DNA of 22,527 nucleotides, from the IMG/VR virus record IMGVR_UViG_3300032285_001198, positions 1 to 22,527 of that record; one strand, 5' to 3'. This DNA comes from a virus. The notes under the pieces are model-generated. The model had not been told where the DNA came from. It did not search any database and saw only the letters and a list, made by a program, of their open reading frames with translations. Each line of letters opens with the position of its first letter. Position 1 is the first letter of the stretch. The position numbers were made by a program, and so were the translations under genes. Of this stretch, positions 20-19,174 are shown one piece after another.

Positions 20-817
20 ATGTGTAAAGAGATACTATTAAATCATTTAGTCATGCAGTCAGCATTATATGATTTACCATCTGAAAAAGAAAGACAAAGA
101 AGTAATACAGAGTTAGCAAATCTATTTGGTAATATTATTGCTAATAGTAATATAGATTCATTCTTTGAGATAGGTGCTTTAAATGCAGAGTTTTCAATGT
201 TTATTAAAGATCACGTAAAAAATGTTGTGGCATTTGAAGCAAGCCCACGTAACTATAAAAATGCTAAAGACTCACTATCTGATATTGAATATTTAAAAAT
301 GGCTGTATCAGATATTGATGGAGAGGTTGAATTTAATATTGCCACATCCACTAAGTCTGGTTCTGGAGCAATAAATGTAGGAGCAGACTCTATGATGTCA
401 AGAATTGATAATCAAGATATTATTTATAATGTAAATAAAGTGCCTTCTACAAAGCTAGATACTTTTATTAAAAATAAAAAATGGGATAACCAAACTAATG
501 CCTTATGGATAGATGTAGAAGGTGCATCATTTAAAGTTCTCTCAGGAGCAGAAAACACTTTGGCAAATACTAAAGTTATCTTTATTGAGATGGAGCAATC
601 AACGTTTTGGAAGGATCAAGCTTTAGTTGATGAAATAAACAAGATTTTATGTAACAAGAACTTTGTTCCAATTGCAAGAGATTTTGAATATGAAAATCAA
701 TTTAATGTAGTCTATGTGTCAGAAGATATTTTATATTCTTCTGCAGTTGATATATCATTACAAATGTTTTATGCTGGAATTGTAACTAAGGGGTCTAGTT
801 ATGTCCAAAAAATCTAA
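20..817 (+). CDS. FkbM-family SAM-dependent methyltransferase
   Basis: This 265-residue protein has the layout of FkbM-type (Methyltransf_21) methyltransferases, which transfer a methyl group from SAM, often to a sugar hydroxyl. Seen: motif I FFEIGALNAEFS (about 48-59), the acidic strand-2 motif VAFEASP (70-76), the post-I strand YLKMAVSDIDGEVEF (91-105), STKLDTF (143-149), the LWIDVEGAS motif (162-170) typical of the family, and FIEME (189-193). An in-frame stop at bases 5-7 fixes the reading frame, and the first ATG is taken as the start; the upstream AGAAG is a weak ribosome site. The gene overlaps the glycosyltransferase by 17 bases, so the two are probably translated together and may act on the same glycan. 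The substrate cannot be read; methylation of a virion or host-surface sugar is inference. Confidence 0.82.
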   Translation: MCKEILLNHLVMQSALYDLPSEKERQRSNTELANLFGNIIANSNIDSFFEIGALNAEFSMFIKDHVKNVVAFEASPRNYKNAKDSLSDIEYLKMAVSDIDGEVEFNIATSTKSGSGAINVGADSMMSRIDNQDIIYNVNKVPSTKLDTFIKNKKWDNQTNALWIDVEGASFKVLSGAENTLANTKVIFIEMEQSTFWKDQALVDEINKILCNKNFVPIARDFEYENQFNVVYVSEDILYSSAVDISLQMFYAGIVTKGSSYVQKI

Positions 818-1538
818 ATCAGTATTTATTGCTACCCCAATGTATGGCGGTATGTGTCATGGATCATATGCTAAAAGTGTATTTAATACCATGAAATTTT
901 TATTAGACAACGGTATAGAAGTACAATACAGAGACATGTACAATAACTCTATTATCACTGAGGCAAGAGATTTATTTACACATATGTTCTTAAACTCAGG
1001 TTGTGACTATTTATTTTTTATTGATGCTGATCAATCATTTAAACCAGAAGATGTTTTGCGTATGATTGAAGAAGATAAAGATATGATTGGTGGAGTTGTG
1101 CCAAAGAAAAGAATGAACTGGGAATCTGTATCTGAAGCTGTTAAGCATGGAGTTCCTTCAGATATGCTGAGCAAGTTTAGTGGAGAGTTTAACTTAGCAT
1201 TAATGCCAGGACAAGAGCAACCAGAAGATTTTACAAAATCTTTTGAGGTATCTCATATTGGTACTGGAATGATGATTATTAAAAAGTCAGTATTTGAGAA
1301 GTTAAAGTCATCTACTAGAGAGTATACGTATACTGGTTCAGGAGTTCTTGGTGCAAATCCAGGGGATAAAATGAATGAGTATTGGAATACTAACATTTCA
1401 GATGAAGGAACACTAATGGGAGAAGATGTAAACTTCTGCTATATGTGGAGAAAACTAGGTGGCAAGGTTTATGCTGCTCCATATGCAAAAACAACACATG
1501 TAGGCTCTTACGAGTTTTCTGGAACATTAAATCCATAA
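801..1538 (+). CDS. Glycosyltransferase, GT-A fold (GT2-like)
   Basis: A 245-residue protein that looks like a nucleotide-sugar-dependent glycosyltransferase. Seen: an N-terminal strand SVFIATPMYGG (7-17), a helix and second strand ending in the basic/acidic YRDMYNNSIITEARD (43-57), and a DXD-type metal/nucleotide motif in YLFFIDADQSF (Asp75-Ala-Asp77). Further on are a GTGMMIIKKSVFEKL segment, GEDVNFCYMWRKLGG with the expected ED acceptor-site acid pair, and a late His (TTHVGS). AAGGGG lies 7 bases before the ATG, supporting this start although it falls inside the methyltransferase gene. It is the last gene before a terminator. Acceptor and sugar are unknown; phage-encoded enzymes of this type may modify virion proteins, DNA bases or host surface glycans. 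Confidence 0.8.
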   Translation: MSKKSKSVFIATPMYGGMCHGSYAKSVFNTMKFLLDNGIEVQYRDMYNNSIITEARDLFTHMFLNSGCDYLFFIDADQSFKPEDVLRMIEEDKDMIGGVVPKKRMNWESVSEAVKHGVPSDMLSKFSGEFNLALMPGQEQPEDFTKSFEVSHIGTGMMIIKKSVFEKLKSSTREYTYTGSGVLGANPGDKMNEYWNTNISDEGTLMGEDVNFCYMWRKLGGKVYAAPYAKTTHVGSYEFSGTLNP

Positions 1539-1562
1539 TACTGCTTTATTAAACTTAAAGTG

Positions 1563-1596
1563 CTATACCTAATCTTAAGGTATAGTCTTTTTGTTT
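1563..1596 (+). terminator. Rho-independent terminator after the glycosyltransferase
   Basis: CTATACCT (1563-1570) pairs perfectly with AGGTATAG (1578-1585) around a 7-base loop, followed by the T-rich tract TCTTTTTGTTTT. The stem is AT-rich but long and the T tract is good. It separates the sugar-modifying gene pair from the reductase promoter immediately downstream. Confidence 0.78.
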
Positions 1597-1601
1597 TACG
1601 C

Positions 1602-1630
1602 TTGAAACTATTAAATAATTATGTTATACT
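1602..1630 (+). promoter_or_regulatory. Sigma-70-type promoter of the ribonucleotide reductase
   Basis: TTGAAA (1602-1607) and TATACT (1625-1630) are separated by exactly 17 bases, and the -10 is preceded by TGT, giving the extended form TGTTATACT. Of the promoters seen here it is the only one with a clear -35 element at proper spacing. Transcription would start near 1637, leaving a leader of about 54 bases with a hairpin and an SD (GAAAGG, 1677-1682). Confidence 0.75.
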
Positions 1631-1637
1631 TAGGTAC

Positions 1638-1658
1638 TACTTCAGAAAACATGAAGTA
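1638..1658 (+). promoter_or_regulatory. Hairpin in the reductase 5' leader
   Basis: TACTTCA (1638-1644) and TGAAGTA (1652-1658) form a perfect 7-bp stem with a 7-base loop right at the predicted transcript 5' end; a run of five T follows at 1667-1671. It could protect the mRNA end or act as a weak attenuator. It is far too small for a cobalamin riboswitch. A 7-bp inverted repeat can also arise by chance. Confidence 0.35.
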
Positions 1659-1690
1659 CTCATCTATTTTTACTTTGAAAGGTATATAAA

Positions 1691-3715
1691 ATGTCAGAAA
1701 GCGTATTTTCATTCCGTCTATCAGAAGATTTTGTGAGCAAGTATCAGTTCACTCCAGCACCATTTGGATTCTCAGATGCAGGATCTAATTCGCTTGGAGA
1801 GATTACTTTTATTCGCACATATTCTCGTGTTAAGGAAGACGGTACAAAAGAACGCTGGCATGAAGTTTGTCGTCGTGTAATTGAGGGTATGTATTCAGTG
1901 CAAAAGAACCATGCCAAAGATAATCGTCTACCATGGAATGATAATAAAGCACAGAAATCTGCACAAGAAGCCTTTCAAAGAATGTTTGAGTTAAAGTGGA
2001 CTCCACCAGGTCGTGGCCTATGGGCATTTGGTACCCCTATGACTATGGAGAAGCGTAACTCAGCATCCCTTCAAAACTGTGCAATGGTTTCAACCAGAGA
2101 CCTTGACCGTAATGATCCTGGTGCATTATTTGCTTGGGTAATGGATGCTTTGATGCTGGGTATTGGAGTTGGATTTGATACCCTTGGACAAGATAAGCAG
2201 ATGCCTATCTATGCACCAACAGAACCAGCATCAACTTATGATATTCCTGATACTCGTGAAGGATGGGTTGAATCAGTTCGTCTTTTGATTAACTCATTTC
2301 TACGTCAGAATCAATCAATCCAGCTTTTCAACTATGATCTCATCCGTCCTCTAGGTGCCCCTATTAAGGGCTTTGGAGGCGTTGCAAGCGGTCCAGCACC
2401 ACTTATTGATCTCCATACACGTATCCGCAATGTAATTGGCTCTAGAGCAGGAGAGATGCTTGATTCTCGTGCTATTGTAGACATCATTAATCTTATTGGT
2501 ACCTGTGTTGTTTCTGGCAACGTTCGTCGTTCTGCTACCCTTGCTCTTGGTGCTCCAAATGATAAAGATTTTATTAATCTAAAAAATGCAGAAGTTTTTC
2601 CAGAACGTAACTCATACGATCCAGAAAATCCAGGTTGGGCGTATATGTCTAATAACTCAATCTCTGCTGAGATTGGAACAAAGTATGAAGACTATGTTGA
2701 TCTAATTGCAAACAATGGAGAACCTGGTTTTATCTGGCTTGATGTTGCTCGTAACTATGGTCGCTTAGTAGATCCAGCAGATGGCAAGGATTATCGTGTA
2801 ATGGGTATGAATCCATGTGCTGAGATGGACCTTGAAAGTGGAGAAATGTGTACTCTTGTTGAAGTTCATTTAAATCGTCATGAGTCTAAGGAAGACTTTT
2901 TAAAGACATTGAAATTTGCATACCTTTATGGAAAGACTGTAACACTAATGCCAACACATTGGCCACAAACAAACGGTATCATGCAACGCAATCGTCGCAT
3001 TGGAACATCTCTTACAGGAATAGCTTCTTTTGCTGATGAGCATGGCTTGCCTATTGTCCGTGAGTGGATGGATGAAGGATACAATAAGATTCGTCATTAT
3101 GATAACAAATATTCAGAATGGCTTTGTGTTCGTGAATCAATTCGTGTAACAACAGTTAAGCCTTCAGGATCTGTATCTCTTCTTTCTGGTGCGACTCCTG
3201 GTGTTCATTGGGGTCCTGGAGGAGCTTTTTATCTTCGTGCTATTCGTTTTGGAAAGCAAGATCAAATGATGCATTTGTTTAAAGCAGCAGGGTACAAAAT
3301 TGAAGATGATATTTACTCAGAAGATACCTCAGTAGTATACTTCCCAATTAAGTCAGGACACAAGCGTTCTGAAAAAGAAGTAAGCCTATTTGAGAAGATT
3401 GGACTAGCTGCAACATCTCAGAAGTATTGGTCTGATAATGGAGTTTCTGTAACCTTATCTTTTGACAAAGAAACAGAAAAGCAGTTTGTTGCTCCAGCAC
3501 TACATATGTATGAAGGTCAGCTAAAGGCTGTTTCATTTCTTCCAATGGGAAATAAGATTTACCCTCAGCAACCATACTCTGAGATTACAGAGGAAGAATA
3601 TAATGCCTATATTGGAAAAATTGCAACAATTGATTGGTCTGCAATTTATGACGGTATTGAGAACCTTGACGCACTGGGAGAAAAATACTGTAATAACGAT
3701 AACTGTTTGATCTAG
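1691..3715 (+). CDS. nrdJ: Adenosylcobalamin-dependent (class II) ribonucleoside-triphosphate reductase, monomeric
   Basis: A 674-residue class II ribonucleotide reductase that reduces ribonucleotides to deoxyribonucleotides for phage DNA synthesis, using a radical generated from adenosylcobalamin. Seen: LQNCAMVSTRD (Cys130), GIGVGFDTLG (157-166), GNVRRSATLALG (276-287), NPCAE (374-378), EMCTLVEVHLN (Cys387), KPSGSVSLLSGATPGVHW (490-507), and the C-terminal YCNNDNCLI (Cys667, Cys672). Compared with the Lactobacillus leichmannii monomeric enzyme (Cys119, Cys408, Cys419, Cys731, Cys736), both internal spacings match: 11 residues from the radical Cys376 to Cys387, and 5 between the tail cysteines. 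Asn374 and Glu378 complete the active site. It is somewhat shorter than the ~739-residue type enzyme. GAAAGG 8 bases before ATG supports the start. Arginine is mostly CGT, unlike the AGA-rich upstream genes. Its place beside head genes is unusual. Confidence 0.94.
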   Translation: MSESVFSFRLSEDFVSKYQFTPAPFGFSDAGSNSLGEITFIRTYSRVKEDGTKERWHEVCRRVIEGMYSVQKNHAKDNRLPWNDNKAQKSAQEAFQRMFELKWTPPGRGLWAFGTPMTMEKRNSASLQNCAMVSTRDLDRNDPGALFAWVMDALMLGIGVGFDTLGQDKQMPIYAPTEPASTYDIPDTREGWVESVRLLINSFLRQNQSIQLFNYDLIRPLGAPIKGFGGVASGPAPLIDLHTRIRNVIGSRAGEMLDSRAIVDIINLIGTCVVSGNVRRSATLALGAPNDKDFINLKNAEVFPERNSYDPENPGWAYMSNNSISAEIGTKYEDYVDLIANNGEPGFIWLDVARNYGRLVDPADGKDYRVMGMNPCAEMDLESGEMCTLVEVHLNRHESKEDFLKTLKFAYLYGKTVTLMPTHWPQTNGIMQRNRRIGTSLTGIASFADEHGLPIVREWMDEGYNKIRHYDNKYSEWLCVRESIRVTTVKPSGSVSLLSGATPGVHWGPGGAFYLRAIRFGKQDQMMHLFKAAGYKIEDDIYSEDTSVVYFPIKSGHKRSEKEVSLFEKIGLAATSQKYWSDNGVSVTLSFDKETEKQFVAPALHMYEGQLKAVSFLPMGNKIYPQQPYSEITEEEYNAYIGKIATIDWSAIYDGIENLDALGEKYCNNDNCLI

Positions 3716-3737: not shown

Positions 3738-4343
3738 ATGATTGATAATGTACAAAGTTCTCATAAGATGTGCTCTATAGTTGGTTGTGGTAAAGAAAAA
3801 CATGCAAAGATGCTTTGCCACAATCACTACAGAGAGCTTATACGTAGATCATCAGGAGTAAAAGCACAAGCAGTAAGACCAGATAAGTGCGTTGTTAAAG
3901 ATTGTAATAAAAAACATTACTCTATGGATTATTGTGCCTCTCATTATGCAAGACTTAAATCTGCTGCAGGAATCCAAGAAGAGCTTCCAATTAAGGTTCT
4001 TATTTATGGAAAAGAAAACTGTGATGTTCCATTTTGCAAAAACAAGCATAAAGCAAAGGGTCTGTGTGCAACTCATGATTCTACAAAAAGAAACTACAGT
4101 CTAACATCAGAACAGTTAGTACAAATGTTATCTAGATTATGTGAAGTTTGCGGGGCTGCAGATAATCTTACTATAGACCATGATCATTCATGCTGCAATT
4201 CTAGAACTTCTTGTGGTAAATGTGTAAGAGGAACTGTTTGTCAGCACTGCAATAGATCAATGGGTCAGGCAAAGGACAATATTCAAATTCTAAGAAGCCT
4301 TGCTGACTATCTTGAGAGGTATAGTAGCAATAATGGTTTGTAG
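3738..4343 (+). CDS. Recombination endonuclease VII-like HNH nuclease with three N-terminal Cys/His modules
   Basis: A 201-residue protein. The C-terminal part matches the endonuclease VII (His-Me finger) pattern: CEVCG (135-139), the LTIDHDHSC active-site region with Asp147-His148-Asp149-His150, VRGTVCQHCNRSMG (163-176) with the second zinc CxxC pair and the conserved Asn172, and a helical tail. Ahead of it are three copies of a C-x4-C-x3/4-H-x5-C-x2-H module: C12/C17/H22/C27/H30, C51/C56/H60/C66/H69 and C95/C100/H104/C110/H113. These look like small zinc-binding units, probably for DNA recognition. The gene starts 22 bases after the reductase stop, has its own likely promoter and no SD. It may be a free-standing homing endonuclease that settled beside the reductase, or a junction-resolving nuclease for packaging; the sequence does not decide. 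Confidence 0.85.
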   Translation: MIDNVQSSHKMCSIVGCGKEKHAKMLCHNHYRELIRRSSGVKAQAVRPDKCVVKDCNKKHYSMDYCASHYARLKSAAGIQEELPIKVLIYGKENCDVPFCKNKHKAKGLCATHDSTKRNYSLTSEQLVQMLSRLCEVCGAADNLTIDHDHSCCNSRTSCGKCVRGTVCQHCNRSMGQAKDNIQILRSLADYLERYSSNNGL

Positions 4344-6411: not shown

Positions 6412-6420
6412 TGGTATAAT
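6412..6420 (+). promoter_or_regulatory. Extended -10 promoter of the protease/scaffold/capsid unit
   Basis: TGGTATAAT has a perfect -10 hexamer at 6415-6420, 9 bases before the ATG at 6430. A TTGAGA at 6390-6395 could serve as a -35 at the long spacing of 19. There is no SD before 6430, so the mRNA would have only a 2-3 base leader. This promoter would serve protease, scaffold and capsid as far as the hairpin at 8910. Confidence 0.68.
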
Positions 6421-6429
6421 AGAATCGTC

Positions 6430-7737
6430 ATGAATATAAATAAAGCACACTGGTCAACCGACGGCGATAACGTTCGTCTATCAATGCCTCTCACAAAGGT
6501 TGATCAAGAACGTCGTATTGTTTCAGGTTTTGCTTCTTTGGATAATCTAGATAAGCAAGATGATATTGTAACAACAGAGGCTTCTATGGCAGCATTTGCT
6601 AAATTCCGTGGGAACATTAGAGAAATGCACCAGCCATCAGCAGTTGGTAAGATGGTTTCATTTAAAGAAGATAAGTATTTTGATCCAGAGACAAAGAAGT
6701 TCTATAAGGGCGTATTTGTTTCAGCGTATATTTCAAAGGGTGCACAGGATGCCTGGGAGAAAGTTCTAGACGGAACATATACAGGTTTTTCTATTGGGGG
6801 ACGAATGAATAAGTGGGATGATGCTTATGATGAAAAATCAGATAAGCCAATTAGAGTTATTAAGGAATATGATTTAGTTGAGTTGAGTCTTGTAGATTCC
6901 CCAGCTAATCAGTTTGCAAATATCGTATCAGTTGAAAAAGTTGACGGTGTAGATACACTAACAGGTTCATCAGCAGATACAATTGTTGAAAACGTATTCT
7001 GGGATGCAGAATCTGGAATCGTTACAATCTCTGAAAATGAAACAGAGCTTAGCCCAGTTTCTGGTGAAGAGATGAAAAATATTGGATTTGTTGAAAAGAA
7101 TGACTCAGAAAAAACCACAATGATAAAGTTCTTAGTTGATAGTGCAAAAGGCATTAGAACAATTAAGATAGCAAAGGAGGATAATCCTATGACAGAAGAA
7201 ACAACAACAGTTGTTGATGCTCCAGAAGCACCAGCAGCAGACGTAGTTAATGAAGTTGAGGTTGCTCCAGAGGCTCCAGCAGAGGCTGTAGCAGATGCAC
7301 CAGAGGTTGTAGCAGAAGTTGCAACTGAAGAGGCACCAGCAGCAGTTGAAGATGGTAGTGCTCCTTCTATTGAAGAAGAAACAGAGAAAGCTGATGAAGC
7401 AATTGTTGAGGTTGCAACAGCAACAGCAGAAGTTGCTAAGGCAGTTTCTGAAATTCAGAACTCTGTAACTAATGCCTTGAGCGATCTTGCAGCAACAGTA
7501 AAGTCTTTGCAGACAAACGTTGATGCAATTACAAAGTCTCTTGAATCCGTAACAAATGAAGTTAAGGAAGTTAAGGGAAACTTTAACGAGTTTGGAAAGA
7601 CAGTTGATGCCGTAGTTGCAGATACAGCTTTCCGCAAGTCTGGCGATCTCGGCGAGATTGTACAGGAATCACCAAAAGTGATTCAGAAATCCCTATGGGG
7701 CGGACGTTTCCTCACAAATTCCGACCTATTTAACTAA
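6430..7737 (+). CDS. Prohead protease (XkdF-like) fused to scaffold domain
   Basis: A 435-residue protein in two parts. Residues 1-170 resemble the XkdF/HK97-type prohead serine protease that digests the scaffold during capsid maturation: RRIVSGFASLDNLDKQDDIV (29-48), REMHQPS with His67, TGFSIGGR with Ser121, and LVELSLVDSPANQF with Glu151. The His-Ser-Glu set is my proposed catalytic triad. Residues 171-250 form a linker. Residues 254-435 are Ala/Glu/Val/Pro-rich, then a likely coiled coil (about 315-400), and a conserved-looking aromatic C-terminus (SLWGGRFLTNSDLFN), as in scaffolding proteins that bind the capsid protein. The gene has no SD and probably begins almost at the mRNA 5' end. 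A strong internal ribosome site at 7173 indicates separate scaffold production. Confidence 0.88.
   Translation: MNINKAHWSTDGDNVRLSMPLTKVDQERRIVSGFASLDNLDKQDDIVTTEASMAAFAKFRGNIREMHQPSAVGKMVSFKEDKYFDPETKKFYKGVFVSAYISKGAQDAWEKVLDGTYTGFSIGGRMNKWDDAYDEKSDKPIRVIKEYDLVELSLVDSPANQFANIVSVEKVDGVDTLTGSSADTIVENVFWDAESGIVTISENETELSPVSGEEMKNIGFVEKNDSEKTTMIKFLVDSAKGIRTIKIAKEDNPMTEETTTVVDAPEAPAADVVNEVEVAPEAPAEAVADAPEVVAEVATEEAPAAVEDGSAPSIEEETEKADEAIVEVATATAEVAKAVSEIQNSVTNALSDLAATVKSLQTNVDAITKSLESVTNEVKEVKGNFNEFGKTVDAVVADTAFRKSGDLGEIVQESPKVIQKSLWGGRFLTNSDLFN
7173..7180 (+). promoter_or_regulatory. Internal ribosome binding site for the nested scaffold
   Basis: AAAGGAGG is a near-perfect SD placed 8 bases before an in-frame ATG at 7189, deep inside the protease gene. 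Only the capsid gene has a comparably strong site here. The protease start itself has none. Confidence 0.72.
7189..7737 (+). CDS. Nested capsid scaffolding protein (internal in-frame start)
   Basis: Starting at the ATG of residue 254 of the protease fusion, this frame encodes 182 residues: MTEETTTVVDAPEAP, an acidic Ala/Pro/Val/Glu-rich stretch with repeated APEAP and EVAPEAP-like units, a long predicted coiled coil (VEVATATAEVAKAVSEI and after), and the SLWGGRFLTNSDLFN end. The composition is that of an internal scaffold that guides capsid assembly and is then degraded. The SD at 7173-7180 at ideal distance is the direct evidence. The arrangement is the same as lambda C/Nu3, where protease and scaffold share the C-terminus; from that analogy the short form should far outnumber the fusion. 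The weak point is that Met254 could simply be an internal Met with a chance SD. Confidence 0.65.
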   Translation: MTEETTTVVDAPEAPAADVVNEVEVAPEAPAEAVADAPEVVAEVATEEAPAAVEDGSAPSIEEETEKADEAIVEVATATAEVAKAVSEIQNSVTNALSDLAATVKSLQTNVDAITKSLESVTNEVKEVKGNFNEFGKTVDAVVADTAFRKSGDLGEIVQESPKVIQKSLWGGRFLTNSDLFN

Positions 7738-12032: not shown

Positions 12033-12668
12033 ATGGCATATAGTCGTGGAACGTCTACCAACATTATCGTTGGTGCAGCAGCACTCTTTGTTGCAGACAC
12101 AACTTTGACTCCAGGTACACTGGAGCCTTTTGTATCAAGCGAATCATTCAGAGAAACACTTGCTGATGATGCAACTTACACAAACGTAGGTTACACCATG
12201 AACGGTCTTGAATTGCAGTTCCAGCCTGACTTCGGTGAAGTACAGGTTGACCAAATTCTTGACGTTGCTAAGCTATACAAGCAGGGTATGAAGGTTAACC
12301 TTGCAACAGCTTTTGCTGAGGCTACACTAGAGAATCTTCTTTTGTCTCTAGCATACTCAGATTCAAAGCTAACAGGAACTAAGTCAACATCTGCTGGACA
12401 GGCTCTTGACCTTTCAGCAGGAGATATCGGTGAATGCCCAGTTGAGCGAGGAATCGTTGCAGTTGGTCCAGGAACTGGTGACTGTGCAGACTCTGCTTAT
12501 GTAGAGCGTGTATACTCAGCATACCGTGCACTCTCAATTGAGAATGTAACAGTATCAGCTAAGCGTGACTCAGCTTCAATGTTTGAAGTTTCATTCCGTC
12601 TTCTTCCAGAGGACACAACTGGTTCATATGGTAAGATCGTAGATCGTACTTGGACAGCAGCTTCATAA
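12033..12668 (+). CDS. Major tail tube protein
   Basis: A 211-residue protein with the features of a major tail protein that polymerises into the tail tube: TSTNIIVGAAALFVADTTLT at the N-terminus, a beta-rich body with YTNVGYTMNGLELQFQPDFG and EVQVDQILDVAKLYKQGMKV, a helix (EATLENLLLSLAYSD), and a C-terminal strand region (LSIENVTVSAKRDSASMFEV, FRLLPEDTTGSYGKIVDRTW). It is transcribed as a single-gene unit between its own promoter and a strong terminator. It uses mostly CGT for arginine, as does the capsid gene, which suits a protein made in hundreds of copies. Position before the chaperones and tape measure supports the call strongly. Confidence 0.85.
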   Translation: MAYSRGTSTNIIVGAAALFVADTTLTPGTLEPFVSSESFRETLADDATYTNVGYTMNGLELQFQPDFGEVQVDQILDVAKLYKQGMKVNLATAFAEATLENLLLSLAYSDSKLTGTKSTSAGQALDLSAGDIGECPVERGIVAVGPGTGDCADSAYVERVYSAYRALSIENVTVSAKRDSASMFEVSFRLLPEDTTGSYGKIVDRTWTAAS

Positions 12669-12690: not shown

Positions 12691-12725
12691 AGCCCATCTC
12701 ATAACGAGGTGGGCTTTGTTGTTTT
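12691..12725 (+). terminator. Rho-independent terminator after the tail tube gene
   Basis: AGCCCATCTC (12691-12700) pairs with GAGGTGGGCT (12706-12715), a 10-bp stem with one T-G wobble and a 5-base loop, followed by TTGTTGTTTT. It is the best terminator in the window and isolates the abundant tube message from the chaperone genes. Confidence 0.9.
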
Positions 12726-12726
12726 A

Positions 12727-12735
12727 TGGTAAACT
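12727..12735 (+). promoter_or_regulatory. Extended -10 promoter of the long chaperone gene (nearly leaderless)
   Basis: TGGTAAACT (hexamer TAAACT at 12730-12735) ends 9 bases before ATG 12745. It directly follows the terminator T tract, and no SD or -35 is present. The hexamer is weaker than TATAAT, so low expression is expected. Confidence 0.5.
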
Positions 12736-12744
12736 TGATATATC

Positions 12745-13455
12745 ATGGCAACTACAGTATATAAAACAAAAAATATTTATTTATTTGACGGTACAGAAAT
12801 AGAGATAATGCCCCTTAAGATTAAGTATCTTAGGGAATTTATGGATGCCTTTGATAAAATCAAAGATACAAAAAATGATGATGAAGCAATGTTAGTATTA
12901 CTAGAATGTACAAGAATAGCTATGAAGCAATATTTTCCACAGATATCAAAAAGCATAAATGAACTTGAAGATAACCTAGATTTGCCCACAGTCCACGAGA
13001 TACTAGACATAGCAGGAAATATTAAAATTGGTGCTAATTTAGAAGATGATGTAAAGACTCAAGTGCAAAAAGGAGATCCTGGACCATCATGGGATGACTT
13101 TGATTTAGCAAAGCTTGAATCAGAGGTATTTTTGCTGGGGATATGGAAAGATTACAATGAGTTAGAACTATCACTATCTTTATCTGAAATGATGGCAATC
13201 ATATCAAGTAAAAGAGATTTAGACTATCAAGAAAAAAAGTTTTTTGCAGCAATACAAGGAGTTGATCTAGAAGGAGAATCTGATAAAGGTCAACAAGAGT
13301 GGGAAAATTTAAAGGCAAGAGTATTTAGTGGTGGAGCAACAAATGATAGTAATGATGTATTAGCATTACAAGGACAGAATGCACAAAAGGCAGGGTTTGG
13401 TATTGGTATGGGTCTTGACTATGAAGATGCTAGAGACCCTTCTCTCATGGTATAA
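12745..13455 (+). CDS. Tail assembly chaperone, long form (G plus T domains in one frame)
   Basis: A 236-residue protein. Residues 1-105 form the G-like chaperone domain (MATTV, LFDGTEIEIMPLKIKYLREF, LLECTRIAMKQYFPQI, LDLPTVHEILDIAG). Residues 106-236 form an additional domain of the T type (WDDFDLAKLESEVFLLGIW, ISSKRDLDYQEKKFFAAIQG, KARVFSGG, GFGIGMGLDYEDA). In most siphoviruses G and GT are made from one locus by a -1 ribosomal frameshift; here both domains are in one uninterrupted frame, and no canonical slippery heptamer is seen at the domain border. The gene has no SD and a probable near-leaderless mRNA. The protein should bind the tape measure and deliver tube subunits during tail assembly. 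Its final codons lie inside the promoter of the paralogue downstream. Confidence 0.78.
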   Translation: MATTVYKTKNIYLFDGTEIEIMPLKIKYLREFMDAFDKIKDTKNDDEAMLVLLECTRIAMKQYFPQISKSINELEDNLDLPTVHEILDIAGNIKIGANLEDDVKTQVQKGDPGPSWDDFDLAKLESEVFLLGIWKDYNELELSLSLSEMMAIISSKRDLDYQEKKFFAAIQGVDLEGESDKGQQEWENLKARVFSGGATNDSNDVLALQGQNAQKAGFGIGMGLDYEDARDPSLMV

Positions 13456-13456
13456 T
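13448..13456 (+). promoter_or_regulatory. Extended -10 promoter of the short chaperone gene
   Basis: TGGTATAAT has a perfect hexamer at 13451-13456 and overlaps the stop codon of the long chaperone gene (TAA 13453-13455). Transcription near 13463 gives a leader of about 20 bases that includes GGGAGG. It is a better -10 than that of the first copy. Confidence 0.65.
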
Positions 13457-13470
13457 TGATACAAACCTAT

Positions 13471-13476
13471 GGGAGG
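13471..13476 (+). promoter_or_regulatory. Ribosome binding site of the short chaperone gene
   Basis: GGGAGG, 7 bases before ATG 13484, decides this start over an ATG at 13469 that overlaps the SD. The chosen start also gives a protein beginning MATTV like its paralogue. Confidence 0.78.
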
Positions 13477-13483
13477 GATCAAC

Positions 13484-13810
13484 ATGGCAACAACTGTGCA
13501 TGAAGCGCATAAGATCAAGCTAATTGATGGTACAGAAATAACCTTAAGACCACTTAAGATTTCACTTTTGCGAAAGTTTATGAAAAAGTTTGAGGGTATT
13601 GCAGCAGTAGTAGATGATAACGATAAGTCAATCAATCTACTCATGGAATGTGTACTAATAGCAATGGAGCAATATAAGCCAGAGTTAGCAGGAGATATTG
13701 CTGCACTGGAAGAAATTATTGATTTGCCTACTGTCTATGAAATTGTTGAAACAGCATCAGGAATTAAACTATCTGATGCAGCATCAATTTTTAGCGGTAA
13801 TGAAGAATAA
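13484..13810 (+). CDS. Tail assembly chaperone, short form (G domain only)
   Basis: A 108-residue paralogue of the N-terminal domain of the preceding gene (MATTV, KLIDGTEITLRPLKISLLRK, LLMECVLIAMEQYKPEL, IDLPTVYEIVETASGIKL). It stops shortly after the domain, and the tape measure gene starts 24 bases later, so no room remains for a frameshifted T extension. It has its own perfect extended -10 promoter and a strong SD, so it should be made in larger amounts than the long form. That is the ratio expected of G over GT. Its role would be to coat the tape measure protein and keep it soluble while the tube polymerises. The function is inferred from position and homology within the window. Confidence 0.75.
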   Translation: MATTVHEAHKIKLIDGTEITLRPLKISLLRKFMKKFEGIAAVVDDNDKSINLLMECVLIAMEQYKPELAGDIAALEEIIDLPTVYEIVETASGIKLSDAASIFSGNEE

Positions 13811-13834: not shown

Positions 13835-16800
13835 ATGGCTGATGTCCAGTCTAATATTAAAGTAAGTATTGATACTACTGATGCACTTTCTAGTATCAAA
13901 AACTTACAGAGACAGATATCAGCCTTTCACACCTCAATGGCAAAAAGTGGTGCTGCAGCAAATGCAGTTACTGCTGGTATGCAACAATCATTAATTAATT
14001 CAATTAATGCTACGGGCAAATTCTCTGCCCAGATGAAAACAATAAAGACAACTACTGAATCATTTACTAGTTCTTTAGAAAAAAACAAGTTTTCACTAGG
14101 AGAATATTTCAGATATGCTGGTGGAGCATCTAAATCTTTTGGCAGACTTTTTAAAACTGAATTTGAAACAATAAATAAAGTTGCTAGAGAAAATGTAAAA
14201 GACCTTCAAACACAATATATTAAGATGGGCCGTGATGCTAATGGCTCAATGAGGGCAATTGCTGTAAGACCACTATCTCTTGATATGAATGATCTTGCAA
14301 CAAAAACAATGATTGCTTCTGAAAAGCAGGCATTGCTTAATCAACTTTTAAAGCAGGGTTCTACAAACCTTCTCAACTTTGGTAAGAATACACAGTGGGC
14401 TGGTCGTCAGCTCATGGTTGGTTTTACAGTTCCATTAATTACCGTTGGTTCTCAAGCTGCAAAAACATTTATGGATATGGAAACACAAGCAATTCGTTTT
14501 AAAAAGGTGTATGGAGATTTATTTACACCAGCAGCAGAGACTAAACAAGCATTAGATGGAATTACAGAGCTTGGAAAGCAGTTTACTAAATATGGAGTTG
14601 CTGTTTCATCTACAGTTGGATTAGCAGCAGATGCCGCCGCTGCAGGTTTTCAAGGTGTTGATCTGCAGCGTCAAACAACAGCAGCAACAAGACTTTCTAT
14701 TTTAGGTCAAATTGATAACCAGCAAGCACTATCAACTACTATCTCGTTACAAAATGCATTTGGAACATCCAGTGCTGACCTAGCAAACAATATTGACTTT
14801 TTAAATGCAGTTGAAAACCAGACTGTAACCTCTCTTGATGATATTACTACTGCAATTCCAAAGGTTGCACCAGTTATTAAACAAATGGGTGGAAATGTAA
14901 AAGACCTTGCCTTCTTCCTTACAGCAATGAAGGAAGGTGGAATTAACGCATCTGAGGGTGCAAATGCGCTTAAGTCTGGACTTGCATCTATGATTAATCC
15001 AACAGCAAAAGCATCAGCAATGCTTGCTGGATTTGGAATTAATATTAAAAAAATTGTTGTAGATAATAAGGGCGATCTAAAGAAAACAGTTATTGATTTT
15101 GCTACTGCATTAAATCAGCTTGATCCGCTAAATCGTGCACAAGCTATTGAGCAGATGTTTGGTAAGTTCCAGTTTGCACGTATTTCAACTTTGTTTGCAA
15201 ATGTAACTAAACAAGGTAATCAAGCATCTAAGGTTCTTGATTTAGCTGGCGCATCAGTTCAAGATCTTGCAAATCTATCAGAAAAAGAATTAGGTATTAC
15301 AGCAGATTCAGCAATGAATAAGTTTAAAAAATCTATTGAAGATTTAAAACTTTCTTTAGTTCCAGTTGGAGAAGAATTCTTAAAAGCAGTTACTCCTATT
15401 GCACAAACTGTTTCTGATATATTAGATAAGTTTAATAATCTTGGTTCTGGAACTAAAAGAACTATTGTTATTTTAACAACAGTTATTGCTGGACTTGGAC
15501 CAATTTTACTTATGACCTTTGGTTTGCTTGCTAATGGTGTTGCTAATATAATTAAGGGTTTTGCAGCAATGAAGACCCTATTTAATAAAACAGGACAATC
15601 AACTGCAACTCTTGGCACTGAAGTAAAATATATGACTCTTGAGCAGAGAAATGCTGCAGCTGTTGCTGCATCACTTGATCAAATTCATAGAAACCTTGCA
15701 CAAACATTTACTGCGGAAGCAGCATCAGTAGACTTACTTACAAATGCTTATTCTAGAGCTATTGCAAAACAAAATCAATTTATACCTACAGGAATTCCAA
15801 TGGGCCGTGGTCCAATCAAGAAGAGGGCTAAAGGTAAGCCTAGAATTATTGGCGGTACTGGAAATCAAGATTCAGAACTTTCATTACTAATGCCTGGCGA
15901 AACAGTAATACCAACAGATATGAGTAAGAAGTATGGCGCTCTAATCAATGGAATGATTGCTGATAATATTCCTGGTTATGCAGAAGGTTTAAAGTCTAGT
16001 TTTATTACAAATACTTCTACATCTGCAGTAGCATCTCATTTTGATGTTACAGCTCCAAGCGAACTTGCAAAAACAATTAGACTGGTTGGAGATGAGCTTA
16101 AAGGATTTTCAACAACAATCCTTAAACTTACAAATAGTGTAAGTGGTTCAGGATATGATTTAGTAAAAAGCCAAGAAGAATTAATTAGCTCAGTTAAAGA
16201 TGAAAATGCTGTACTATCTGGCGGAAGATCTTTTGGCGGTACAACAACTCTTGGTACAGGATCAAGAAACACAATGTTTAATGCAATTGGCATTAAGGGA
16301 GAACCATTTACTCTGGACGCTTTAGTTGAAGCAGGAGATAAAGCAACTACATCATTACAAAAAGATAAAGGTGCAATAACTAAACATACGGCAGAGCTTG
16401 AACAACTTTCTAAAGAAGGAGCAGTTGCAAAAAGTTTATTACAAGATTCAAATACTGCAACTAAATCAAGAATTGAATACATGAGAACTAATGCTAAGCA
16501 GGCAATTACTGAGGGAATTCTAGCAGATGCTAGAATAAAAATTGATGGAAAAAGAATTACTGTAGATCAAGCAAACACTATTGCTAATGAAAGAATTGCA
16601 AAAGTAGATGCTGAATTAGCACAACTTAAGCAATCTGGAATAGCACCAGAACAACAAATATTAGCAGCAAAACGTAAATATTTAGCAGCAATGATAAAGT
16701 CTGGAACTGGTGAGTTTGTTATTGCACCATCAGGAACTGGCGGAGGAGTTGCTAGAGATACGGCTACAGGAAGACCACGAAGTTCAAATAGAGTTAATTT

Positions 16801-19174
16801 CTTAAATCAAAAAGTAGGAGAAAGACAAGCAGCCTATGGTGGACGTGGAGCAGTTCAGATATCAGCCTTAGTAGCAAAAGATTTTGCACTTAAAGGAAAA
16901 AGTTTAGTTGAGTCAGCTACAGCTGCACTTATTAGTGGCGCAAGATCAGCTCTTCGCATTGCCTCACCATCTAAAGAAATGCATGATGCAGGATCTAATG
17001 CAGGAAAAAGTTTAGTAGAAGGTGTAAAGTCTAAAAATAAAGATGCTAATATAGCAGGACAAAATCTTGGAACTTCTATTATTTCTGGAGCAGATGCTAG
17101 AAGAGCAACACGAGCTGCAGGAGCAGCACCTATAGGACCAGCAACGCCATCAGGAGCAACTTTACTTCCAATGACAACTCCTTTAGCACCAACAATGTTT
17201 TCAAGAATGAAGGGCATGACTGGAAAAATTGCTGGTAAGTTTGCTGGAAGAGGAGCAGGACTAGGTATAGCAAGTAACTCTGCTATGATAGCAGCATCTT
17301 TCTTACCTGGAAAAATGGGAGAACTTGCACAAAAGATTATGCCAGCAGTATTTGGTTTTCAAGCACTTTCAATGATTTTGAAGTTTTTGCCAGGACCATT
17401 TAAATTAGTTACTGTTGGACTTGCAGCGACGTATGGAATTATAAAACTGCTTAATGCAGCAAGAGAACGTGAAAGACTAGCAATTGAGGGTCTTGCAGAT
17501 GCTGCAACAATGTCTGAAAAGAAGTTAAAAACTCTTGGAGATTTTTTTGGTATAGTTCCAACAAAGATTGATTATTTATCTAGAAATGGTAGCACCACAA
17601 CAGGAGCAACACCACAACAGCAAGCACAAATTGATACTTTACAAAAAGATAAAAACTTCCAAAAAGATTTCAAAAATGATATTACATCTTTAAAGAAGGC
17701 ATCAGCTGCACAAGCAAAACTAGTTTTTGATTCTATTGGTATACAGTTACAAGGTTCAGGTTTTGCTAAAGAACAAATAGATCTCATAGTAAAAGCACTT
17801 CAAGAAGAATCTGGTAAAACTAATGTTAAGTTTGATTTTGCTAATATTGACCTTACAACAGATAAAGGAATATTAAATTTTGATAAAAACTTTGGAGATA
17901 TTTTAAAACAAATTGATTCTGGAGTTAACCAAGTTTATAGCAGTTTTAAATCTTTTAGTGGCAAAACTGGACAGTGGACTGGTGGCGTAGTAACAGAAAT
18001 ATCTAAAGAAGCTAAAATAAACCTTAAGTTAGCAGCAGATGCTGCAGCTGGTTTTATGAATAGCTTAACTGCACAATTAAAAAATGGAACTATATCTGTA
18101 GATCAATTTAATCAAGGATTTGCAAGAATTAATTCAGCAATCCAATCAATGCCAAAGCCAGAACAAGTTCTTTTATTAAATGCAGTATTTAAAATTTTAC
18201 CAAAAAATGTTCAAACAGCATCTTCTGGAATAACAGATACTTCACAAAAAATGGCTATTCTAGAAGCACAGTCACTAGGTTTAACAGATGCTGCTCTTGG
18301 ATTAGCAGGAGCATTTAAAATACTTAATTCACCAGATGTTTTTGGTCCAGATAATGCAATTAGTAAATATAATGCACAAAATAAGATTAATGTAATTATA
18401 AAACAAGTAAATGATGCTAAAGCAGCAATTAAAAAAGCATTAGGTTCAGGAATCAGCACCAAAGACTACATAGATCCAACTGCTGGTATAAATGGTTCAG
18501 GAAAAGCTGATAATCCTTATCTCAAAATACTTCAAAAAGAAATTGATGCACTTAAAGCTAAGCGTGATGCACAAAAAGATGCAAATGATGAAGTACAAAG
18601 ACAAATTGACCTAGAGATGAAAATGCAGGATCTTTCTAATCAAGCAACTCAGGCTAAGATTTCTGGTAATTATCTACAAGCAGCAATGCTTGGACAACAG
18701 GCACAAAATACACAAATGGCTTTTAATAAAGAAACAGAACTAAGAAAGAAAGATGCTGAAATTGCTGCATTGCAAGCAAGATATGATGCTATTAAGGGTG
18801 GTGCAGCTCTTACTAAGGAAGAGAAGGCAAAGATACCTAAGAAGGCCAATGGAGGCCTTATAAAAGGTCCTGGAACAGGGCGCTCTGACTCAATTAAAGC
18901 ATCTCTTGGATATGCAGGTGGAGGATCTATCCGTGTTTCAAATGGAGAGTTTATTGTAAAGGCTTCATCTGTTGGACAATATGGACTTACTAATATGAAT
19001 GCAGTAAATAATGGTACAGCAGATATCAGCACAAATTCTGGCGGTACCGTGTATAATATAAATATGCCTATTACTGCTAACCAGTCAGATCCAAAGGCAG
19101 TGGGCGAATATGTAATTAATAAGCTTAAGGTTGAGCTTAATAAAAATAATAAGAGCAATAGGGTGGTGATCTAA
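13835..19174 (+). CDS. Tape measure protein
   Basis: At 1779 residues this is the largest complete gene here; it sets tail length and enters the cell during DNA injection. Seen: an N-terminal helical/coiled region (about 1-190); a TP901-type tape-measure domain (about 190-430) with WAGRQLMVGFTVPLI and GINASEGANALKSGL; a hydrophobic segment at about 543-576 (VILTTVIAGLGPILLMTFGL); an internal GG-rich module at about 670-715 with LLMPGETVIPTDMSKKYG; a long helical stretch; SPSKEMHDAGSNAGKSLVEG near 1048; a second hydrophobic region at about 1165-1210; and a C-terminal module with GGLIKGPGTGRSDS and GGGSIRVSNGEFIVK (about 1670-1710) related to the internal one. No lysozyme or peptidase motif was found. 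GAGG at 13823-13826 supports the start. It shares one base with the next gene. Confidence 0.93.
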   Translation: MADVQSNIKVSIDTTDALSSIKNLQRQISAFHTSMAKSGAAANAVTAGMQQSLINSINATGKFSAQMKTIKTTTESFTSSLEKNKFSLGEYFRYAGGASKSFGRLFKTEFETINKVARENVKDLQTQYIKMGRDANGSMRAIAVRPLSLDMNDLATKTMIASEKQALLNQLLKQGSTNLLNFGKNTQWAGRQLMVGFTVPLITVGSQAAKTFMDMETQAIRFKKVYGDLFTPAAETKQALDGITELGKQFTKYGVAVSSTVGLAADAAAAGFQGVDLQRQTTAATRLSILGQIDNQQALSTTISLQNAFGTSSADLANNIDFLNAVENQTVTSLDDITTAIPKVAPVIKQMGGNVKDLAFFLTAMKEGGINASEGANALKSGLASMINPTAKASAMLAGFGINIKKIVVDNKGDLKKTVIDFATALNQLDPLNRAQAIEQMFGKFQFARISTLFANVTKQGNQASKVLDLAGASVQDLANLSEKELGITADSAMNKFKKSIEDLKLSLVPVGEEFLKAVTPIAQTVSDILDKFNNLGSGTKRTIVILTTVIAGLGPILLMTFGLLANGVANIIKGFAAMKTLFNKTGQSTATLGTEVKYMTLEQRNAAAVAASLDQIHRNLAQTFTAEAASVDLLTNAYSRAIAKQNQFIPTGIPMGRGPIKKRAKGKPRIIGGTGNQDSELSLLMPGETVIPTDMSKKYGALINGMIADNIPGYAEGLKSSFITNTSTSAVASHFDVTAPSELAKTIRLVGDELKGFSTTILKLTNSVSGSGYDLVKSQEELISSVKDENAVLSGGRSFGGTTTLGTGSRNTMFNAIGIKGEPFTLDALVEAGDKATTSLQKDKGAITKHTAELEQLSKEGAVAKSLLQDSNTATKSRIEYMRTNAKQAITEGILADARIKIDGKRITVDQANTIANERIAKVDAELAQLKQSGIAPEQQILAAKRKYLAAMIKSGTGEFVIAPSGTGGGVARDTATGRPRSSNRVNFLNQKVGERQAAYGGRGAVQISALVAKDFALKGKSLVESATAALISGARSALRIASPSKEMHDAGSNAGKSLVEGVKSKNKDANIAGQNLGTSIISGADARRATRAAGAAPIGPATPSGATLLPMTTPLAPTMFSRMKGMTGKIAGKFAGRGAGLGIASNSAMIAASFLPGKMGELAQKIMPAVFGFQALSMILKFLPGPFKLVTVGLAATYGIIKLLNAARERERLAIEGLADAATMSEKKLKTLGDFFGIVPTKIDYLSRNGSTTTGATPQQQAQIDTLQKDKNFQKDFKNDITSLKKASAAQAKLVFDSIGIQLQGSGFAKEQIDLIVKALQEESGKTNVKFDFANIDLTTDKGILNFDKNFGDILKQIDSGVNQVYSSFKSFSGKTGQWTGGVVTEISKEAKINLKLAADAAAGFMNSLTAQLKNGTISVDQFNQGFARINSAIQSMPKPEQVLLLNAVFKILPKNVQTASSGITDTSQKMAILEAQSLGLTDAALGLAGAFKILNSPDVFGPDNAISKYNAQNKINVIIKQVNDAKAAIKKALGSGISTKDYIDPTAGINGSGKADNPYLKILQKEIDALKAKRDAQKDANDEVQRQIDLEMKMQDLSNQATQAKISGNYLQAAMLGQQAQNTQMAFNKETELRKKDAEIAALQARYDAIKGGAALTKEEKAKIPKKANGGLIKGPGTGRSDSIKASLGYAGGGSIRVSNGEFIVKASSVGQYGLTNMNAVNNGTADISTNSGGTVYNINMPITANQSDPKAVGEYVINKLKVELNKNNKSNRVVI

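Follow-up and report, generated by a model that had tools for sequence, protein, structure and literature searches.

Paralogous genes for G and GT tail assembly chaperones, probably in place of a programmed frameshift, in uncultured siphovirus-type phages

Introduction

Most long-tailed phages produce two forms of tail assembly chaperone from one gene by means of a programmed ribosome slip, and few recoding events are, to our knowledge, as conserved as this G/GT frameshift. The tape measure protein of phage lambda is bound by many molecules of gpG and few of gpGT (approximately 30:1), and tail tube protein is brought in by the T domain (PMC5009743). When G and T are permanently fused in phage TP901-1, the particles look normal and are non-infectious, and the authors connect this with a requirement for G and GT in a specific ratio (PMC4493119); a phage with nothing but the fused gene should therefore fall short, and another source of G would be expected. 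T4-like phages are described as having a short gene alongside a long fusion gene, with no frameshift (PMC10274946, citing Vladimirov, Gautam and Davidson 2022).

The DNA analysed here, termed "the window", is a stretch of 22,527 nucleotides from a viral metagenomic record (IMGVR_UViG_3300032285_001198, positions 1 to 22,527) that is filled by the head-tail module of an uncultured tailed phage, including portal, protease, capsid, major tail protein and tape measure genes. An initial annotation, made from the sequence alone, had proposed that two duplicated genes in this module supply G and GT in place of a frameshift, each from its own copy of a promoter. Here we report the relationship of these genes to one another and to frameshifting loci, their distribution among uncultured phages, and the signals at which they start. 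We conclude that the pair very probably encodes G and GT, the tail assembly chaperones supplied in other long-tailed phages by one frameshifted locus.

Results

Organization of the locus

Both chaperone genes lie directly between the major tail protein and tape measure genes (Table 1), and no third copy was found in the window record. The start of the short gene was placed at 13484 by its conservation in relatives; an ATG listed at 13469 sits just 5' of the Shine-Dalgarno (SD) sequence. The region preceding the head genes (20-3715) encodes an FkbM-type methyltransferase and a B12-dependent ribonucleotide reductase, together with a weak match to glycosyltransferase family 2.

Table 1. Features of the tail assembly chaperone locus in the window
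Feature	Position	Strand	Remarks
Major tail protein gene, Ig-domain type	12033..12668	+	phrog_2175, E 7e-33; same position in all relatives
Intrinsic terminator, between major tail protein and long chaperone genes	12691..12724	+	-24.4 kcal/mol, z -8.0
Extended -10 of long gene, TGG TAAACT	12727..12735	+	ends 9 nt before ATG; predicted leaderless-type promoter
Long tail assembly chaperone (GT form), 236 aa	12745..13455	+	G domain, linker and T domain in one frame
Layout of long protein			G domain, residues 1-~100; linker; T domain, residues ~116-194 and C-terminal tail
Extended -10 of short gene, TGG TATAAT	13448..13456	+	overlaps 3' end of long gene
Shine-Dalgarno of short gene, GGGAGGG	13471..13477	+	dG -10.7
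Short tail assembly chaperone (G form), 108 aa	13484..13810	+	G domain alone
Tape measure protein gene	13835..19174	+	phrog_10030, E 9e-91; PF10145

Paralogy and domain identity

The initial annotation had read the two genes as paralogues, the first joining a G domain to a T-like domain in one frame and the second confined to G, and sequence comparison upheld this at each point. The long and short proteins share 47% identity over 97 aa (residues 1-97; E 2e-28), and profiles of the two families (58 long and 52 short sequences) align in hhalign with a probability of 99.9 and E 2e-36; the short form thus corresponds to the N-terminal domain of the long form, each G-domain paralogue having its own set of invariant residues. 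Within the 236-aa open frame, residues 1-104 match phrog_10504 and residues 133-193 match phrog_10474 (E 1e-14). The short gene encodes G alone, the tape measure gene starting at 13835, 24 nt past its stop codon. From these sequence relationships, the region spanning residues ~116-194 of the long protein is judged homologous to T.

A model of the long protein has a fold matching viral tail chaperones, among them, weakly, the GT protein of phage N15; the models of the long and short proteins are of moderate confidence (mean pLDDT 70.5 for the long protein and 66.8). Profile searches of solved structures gave no match to the long protein and only chance-level matches to the short one, and a fold search of the PDB was uninformative.

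Comparison with frameshifting relatives

Among isolates, the nearest are Streptomyces phages (family Stanwilliamsviridae), with G genes that likewise match phrog_10504; homologues recovered by sequence came from these and from Trinavirus phages. Like the window, Stanwilliamsviridae (Coruscant, Samisti12, Yaboi, SparkleGoddess, TunaTartare) have the locus after the major tail protein gene and before the tape measure gene, encode homologous G and T domains, and have a terminator and a TGNTATAAT promoter with an SD sequence before G. Unlike the window, they have a single G gene, neither a fused gene nor a second G, and T is reached from this one G/T locus in the -1 frame after G. In each of 11 representatives, no stop codon interrupts the T frame back to a slip site (CCCGGAA or CCCAAAT) at conserved LNDP codons, and in most of these phages the conservation of the T frame (W[DE]xL[ND]L..LE.E.F) extends 5' of the first possible T-frame start codon, which argues for frameshifting in these relatives. 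A joined frameshift coding sequence is annotated in Yaboi and TunaTartare, and also in the more distant Trinavirus NiceHouse.

The long protein of the window aligns end to end with the frameshifted G-T product of these phages, so that the long gene is a genuine in-frame GT; its C-terminal part is colinear with the -1-frame T of all 11 frameshifting relatives, upholding the relationship to T first suggested for it. Frameshifting loci came only from the Streptomyces-type group, which also takes in metagenomic contigs, L173 among them. L173 (IMGVR_UViG_3300007790_000100) has a frameshifting G/T locus with a CCCAAAT slip site and groups with Loccivirinae in the G tree.

Search for a remaining frameshift

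At the junction between the G domain and the remainder of the long gene, no conserved in-frame slippery heptamer was present among 133 diverse long genes, and synonymous conservation was not raised there, with no hotspot. Frames shifted past the end of the G domain remain open for a median of 8 codons (-1) or 2 codons (+1). The slip motif (CCCAAA or CCCGGA) occurs in 11/11 frameshifting genes, in 0/113 long genes and in 0/23 short genes, the last two figures covering those genes that could be scored. Heptamers such as AAAAAAG or TTTTTTG do occur in some long genes, by chance of A+T-rich codons. A hidden frameshift in either gene, sought through heptamers, synonymous sites and shifted-frame lengths, left nothing conserved and was rejected. 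The long form is encoded in a single open frame, not by a shift out of the short gene, in agreement with the initial annotation, and neither gene in the window keeps a CCCAAAT or CCCGGAA slip site.

Distribution and phylogeny

Searches of IMG/VR retrieved 307 loci bearing both genes (a count that takes in the window and two copies of it), of which 180 are distinct in sequence; the survey of relatives thereby established that the gene pair is conserved. All show the same order, with the major tail protein (where the contig reaches it) followed by the fused GT and then G. Apparent single-copy loci stop at contig ends (L026, L048, L060, L073, L183, L189, L200, L218 and L318, and also L225 and L258). 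No relatives were found in contigs of cellular genomes.

In a tree of G domains, the short copies (n=26) form one clade and the frameshifting G sequences (n=12) another, each with 100/100 support; the placement of the long copies relative to these groups is weakly supported. Long and short copies from the same phage do not pair, which points to one old duplication without gene conversion.

Some relatives carry an HNH endonuclease gene inserted after the long gene and before the short one, which even so retains its promoter and SD sequence immediately upstream. The inserted gene encodes 180 aa (L110:5416-5958; also in L029, L065, L111 and L112) and has a leaderless-type -10 of its own, TGATATACT, 6 nt 5' of its ATG. 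An HNH/endonuclease VII-type gene of the same family lies elsewhere in the window (3738-4340).

Start signals of the two genes

The start regions of the two genes differ consistently across 130 diverse loci. In 114/130 loci the long gene has an extended -10 element, TGNTANNNT, whose end lies 5-9 nt 5' of the ATG, compared with 5/684 control ORFs (other ORFs from the same loci; because these were called mechanically and some have wrong starts, the control rate is approximate). The long gene has no SD sequence (median dG -2.9). The element TGNTATAAT precedes the short gene in 126/130 loci, mostly 23-38 nt 5' of the ATG, compared with 38/684 of the same controls, and the short gene has a strong SD sequence (median dG -10.2). 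The SD sequence of the short gene is the stronger of the two in 128/130 loci, and the -10 hexamer is TATAAT in 30/114 long genes versus 126/128 short genes. The window conforms to this pattern and to the contrast initially drawn from it alone: a weak -10 (TAAACT) without SD (dG -2.9) before the long gene, and a perfect -10 (TATAAT) with GGGAGGG (dG -10.7) before the short one.

In the 114 of 130 loci, the position of the long-gene -10 and the absence of an SD sequence fit a leaderless mRNA, predicted to start at the start codon or within 5 nt of it, a feature unnoticed in the initial annotation. Overlooked as well was the strong terminator at 12691-12724, which by a strict rule occurs at the same place in 95/130 relatives. 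Since the G gene of the Streptomyces-type phages likewise starts behind a terminator, TGNTATAAT and an SD sequence, the start region of the short gene looks ancestral and that of the long gene altered.

The promoter itself had been thought to be duplicated. The likeness is real, 13/15 bases agreeing between 12726-12740 and 13447-13461, which are the only perfect matches in the window to the combined pattern; copying need not be invoked, as a single extended -10 consensus (TGNTATAAT) suffices to explain it. No -35 boxes were recognisable, and a simple sigma-70 scan did not return either promoter. At 6412-6430 of the window, TGGTATAAT lies 9 nt 5' of the ATG of a prohead protease-like gene and constitutes another leaderless-type start, which suggests that the phage uses such starts more than once.

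Discussion

Frameshifting was most likely ancestral. We propose that an ancestor with the usual locus, G followed by T in the -1 frame, duplicated G; one copy would then have become the in-frame G-T fusion now seen as the long gene, and the other would have lost T to become the short gene. The slip site disappeared from both copies, a loss evident from comparison with the frameshifting relatives, the order of these events being the one we infer. The long gene would be transcribed from a leaderless-type extended -10 promoter behind the terminator, without an SD sequence, and the short gene from its own consensus extended -10 promoter with a strong SD sequence; the short gene may in addition be translated from mRNA begun at the long promoter. 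Conservation of the motifs argues for promoter activity at both start regions. G would accumulate in excess over GT and coat the tape measure protein, with GT, the scarcer form, recruiting the major tail protein, by analogy with lambda and TP901-1, from which chaperone activity of the pair is also presumed. With the long gene fused, the short gene would be the obvious separate source of G, and the G:GT ratio would be set by promoter and initiation signals, replacing recoding. Overall, we think it likely that a large, uncultured, actinophage-like clade of siphovirus type has lost the near-universal G/GT frameshift in favor of transcription and initiation control, with a leaderless and scarce GT and an abundant G made from a consensus promoter and strong SD sequence.

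Other readings of the locus can be weighed against the same observations. The long gene might still yield both forms by hidden recoding, through a non-canonical -1 or +1 shift or internal termination, the short gene being a paralogue with another job, e.g., as a specialised tape-measure chaperone or a regulator. Divergence of the G domains to 47% identity, with separate invariant residues, and the chance AAAAAAG or TTTTTTG heptamers of some long genes would agree with this, which we nevertheless hold to be improbable: the junction has neither a conserved heptamer nor a synonymous hotspot, any shifted frame is short and of unconserved length, and wherever a contig extends as far as the short gene, that gene is present. 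Still less can be said for an artefact, in which an indel error produced the long frame and misassembly the second gene. Such an origin might be entertained for the window itself, a single metagenomic contig, and is refuted by the survey, the same structure recurring in 180 distinct sequences from many metagenomes; we give it practically no weight.

A rather less remote, if still unlikely, explanation accepts that both proteins act and places control of their ratio mainly after translation or in mRNA decay, the start signals reflecting only the layout of an operon behind a terminator. A leaderless start would be natural where a promoter is squeezed in after a terminator, and leaderless translation can be efficient in actinobacteria, leaderless mRNAs of M. 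tuberculosis showing no overall difference in mRNA:protein ratio (PMC3898074). Leaderless translation is thus not always weak, and the case for the direction of the ratio depends more on the strength of the promoters, the SD sequence and read-through. Layout alone sits poorly with an SD difference that runs in the same direction in 128/130 genomes, and with the weaker -10 of the long gene (TATAAT in 30/114, against 126/128 for the short gene). Replacement of the frameshift by a gene pair with separate start signals is the reading we prefer.

The pair would resemble lambda gpG and gpGT in that G binds the tape measure, T recruits the tube and G is in excess (the roles in the window being assigned by inference), and differs from them in that lambda uses a single locus with a -1 frameshift. 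T4 gp26 and gp51, which we take to be the chaperone pair of that phage, show weak similarity (20%, E 2e-6). T4-like phages have contractile tails, and the genes for gp26 and gp51 are divergently oriented, in contrast to the tandem, co-oriented pair in the siphovirus-type operon of the window, with its leaderless/SD split and frameshifting sister group. The two share production of short and long forms from two genes with no frameshift, as reported for T4-like phages in PMC10274946. The proposal that a duplication replaced the frameshift is supported for the window clade and is not without precedent, since T4-like phages with separate genes are already reported in that source. In the literature searched, most of it outside subscription journals, we found no report of a two-gene replacement in a siphovirus-type operon. 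The present case of such an operon is apparently new and independent of the T4-like phages; new also are its breadth among uncultured phages, the tandem layout and the leaderless/SD split.

The frameshifting sister group makes the replacement visible. For annotation, it follows that a fused GT and a separate G should be sought where a slippery site is absent, for example in cluster DJ phages, which have no identified chaperone gene (PMC12859696). A frameshift-free clade beside sisters that keep the frameshift renders testable whether the slip itself is needed or only the protein ratio, and in the window clade the ratio should reside in two start regions, each of which can be measured and swapped on its own.
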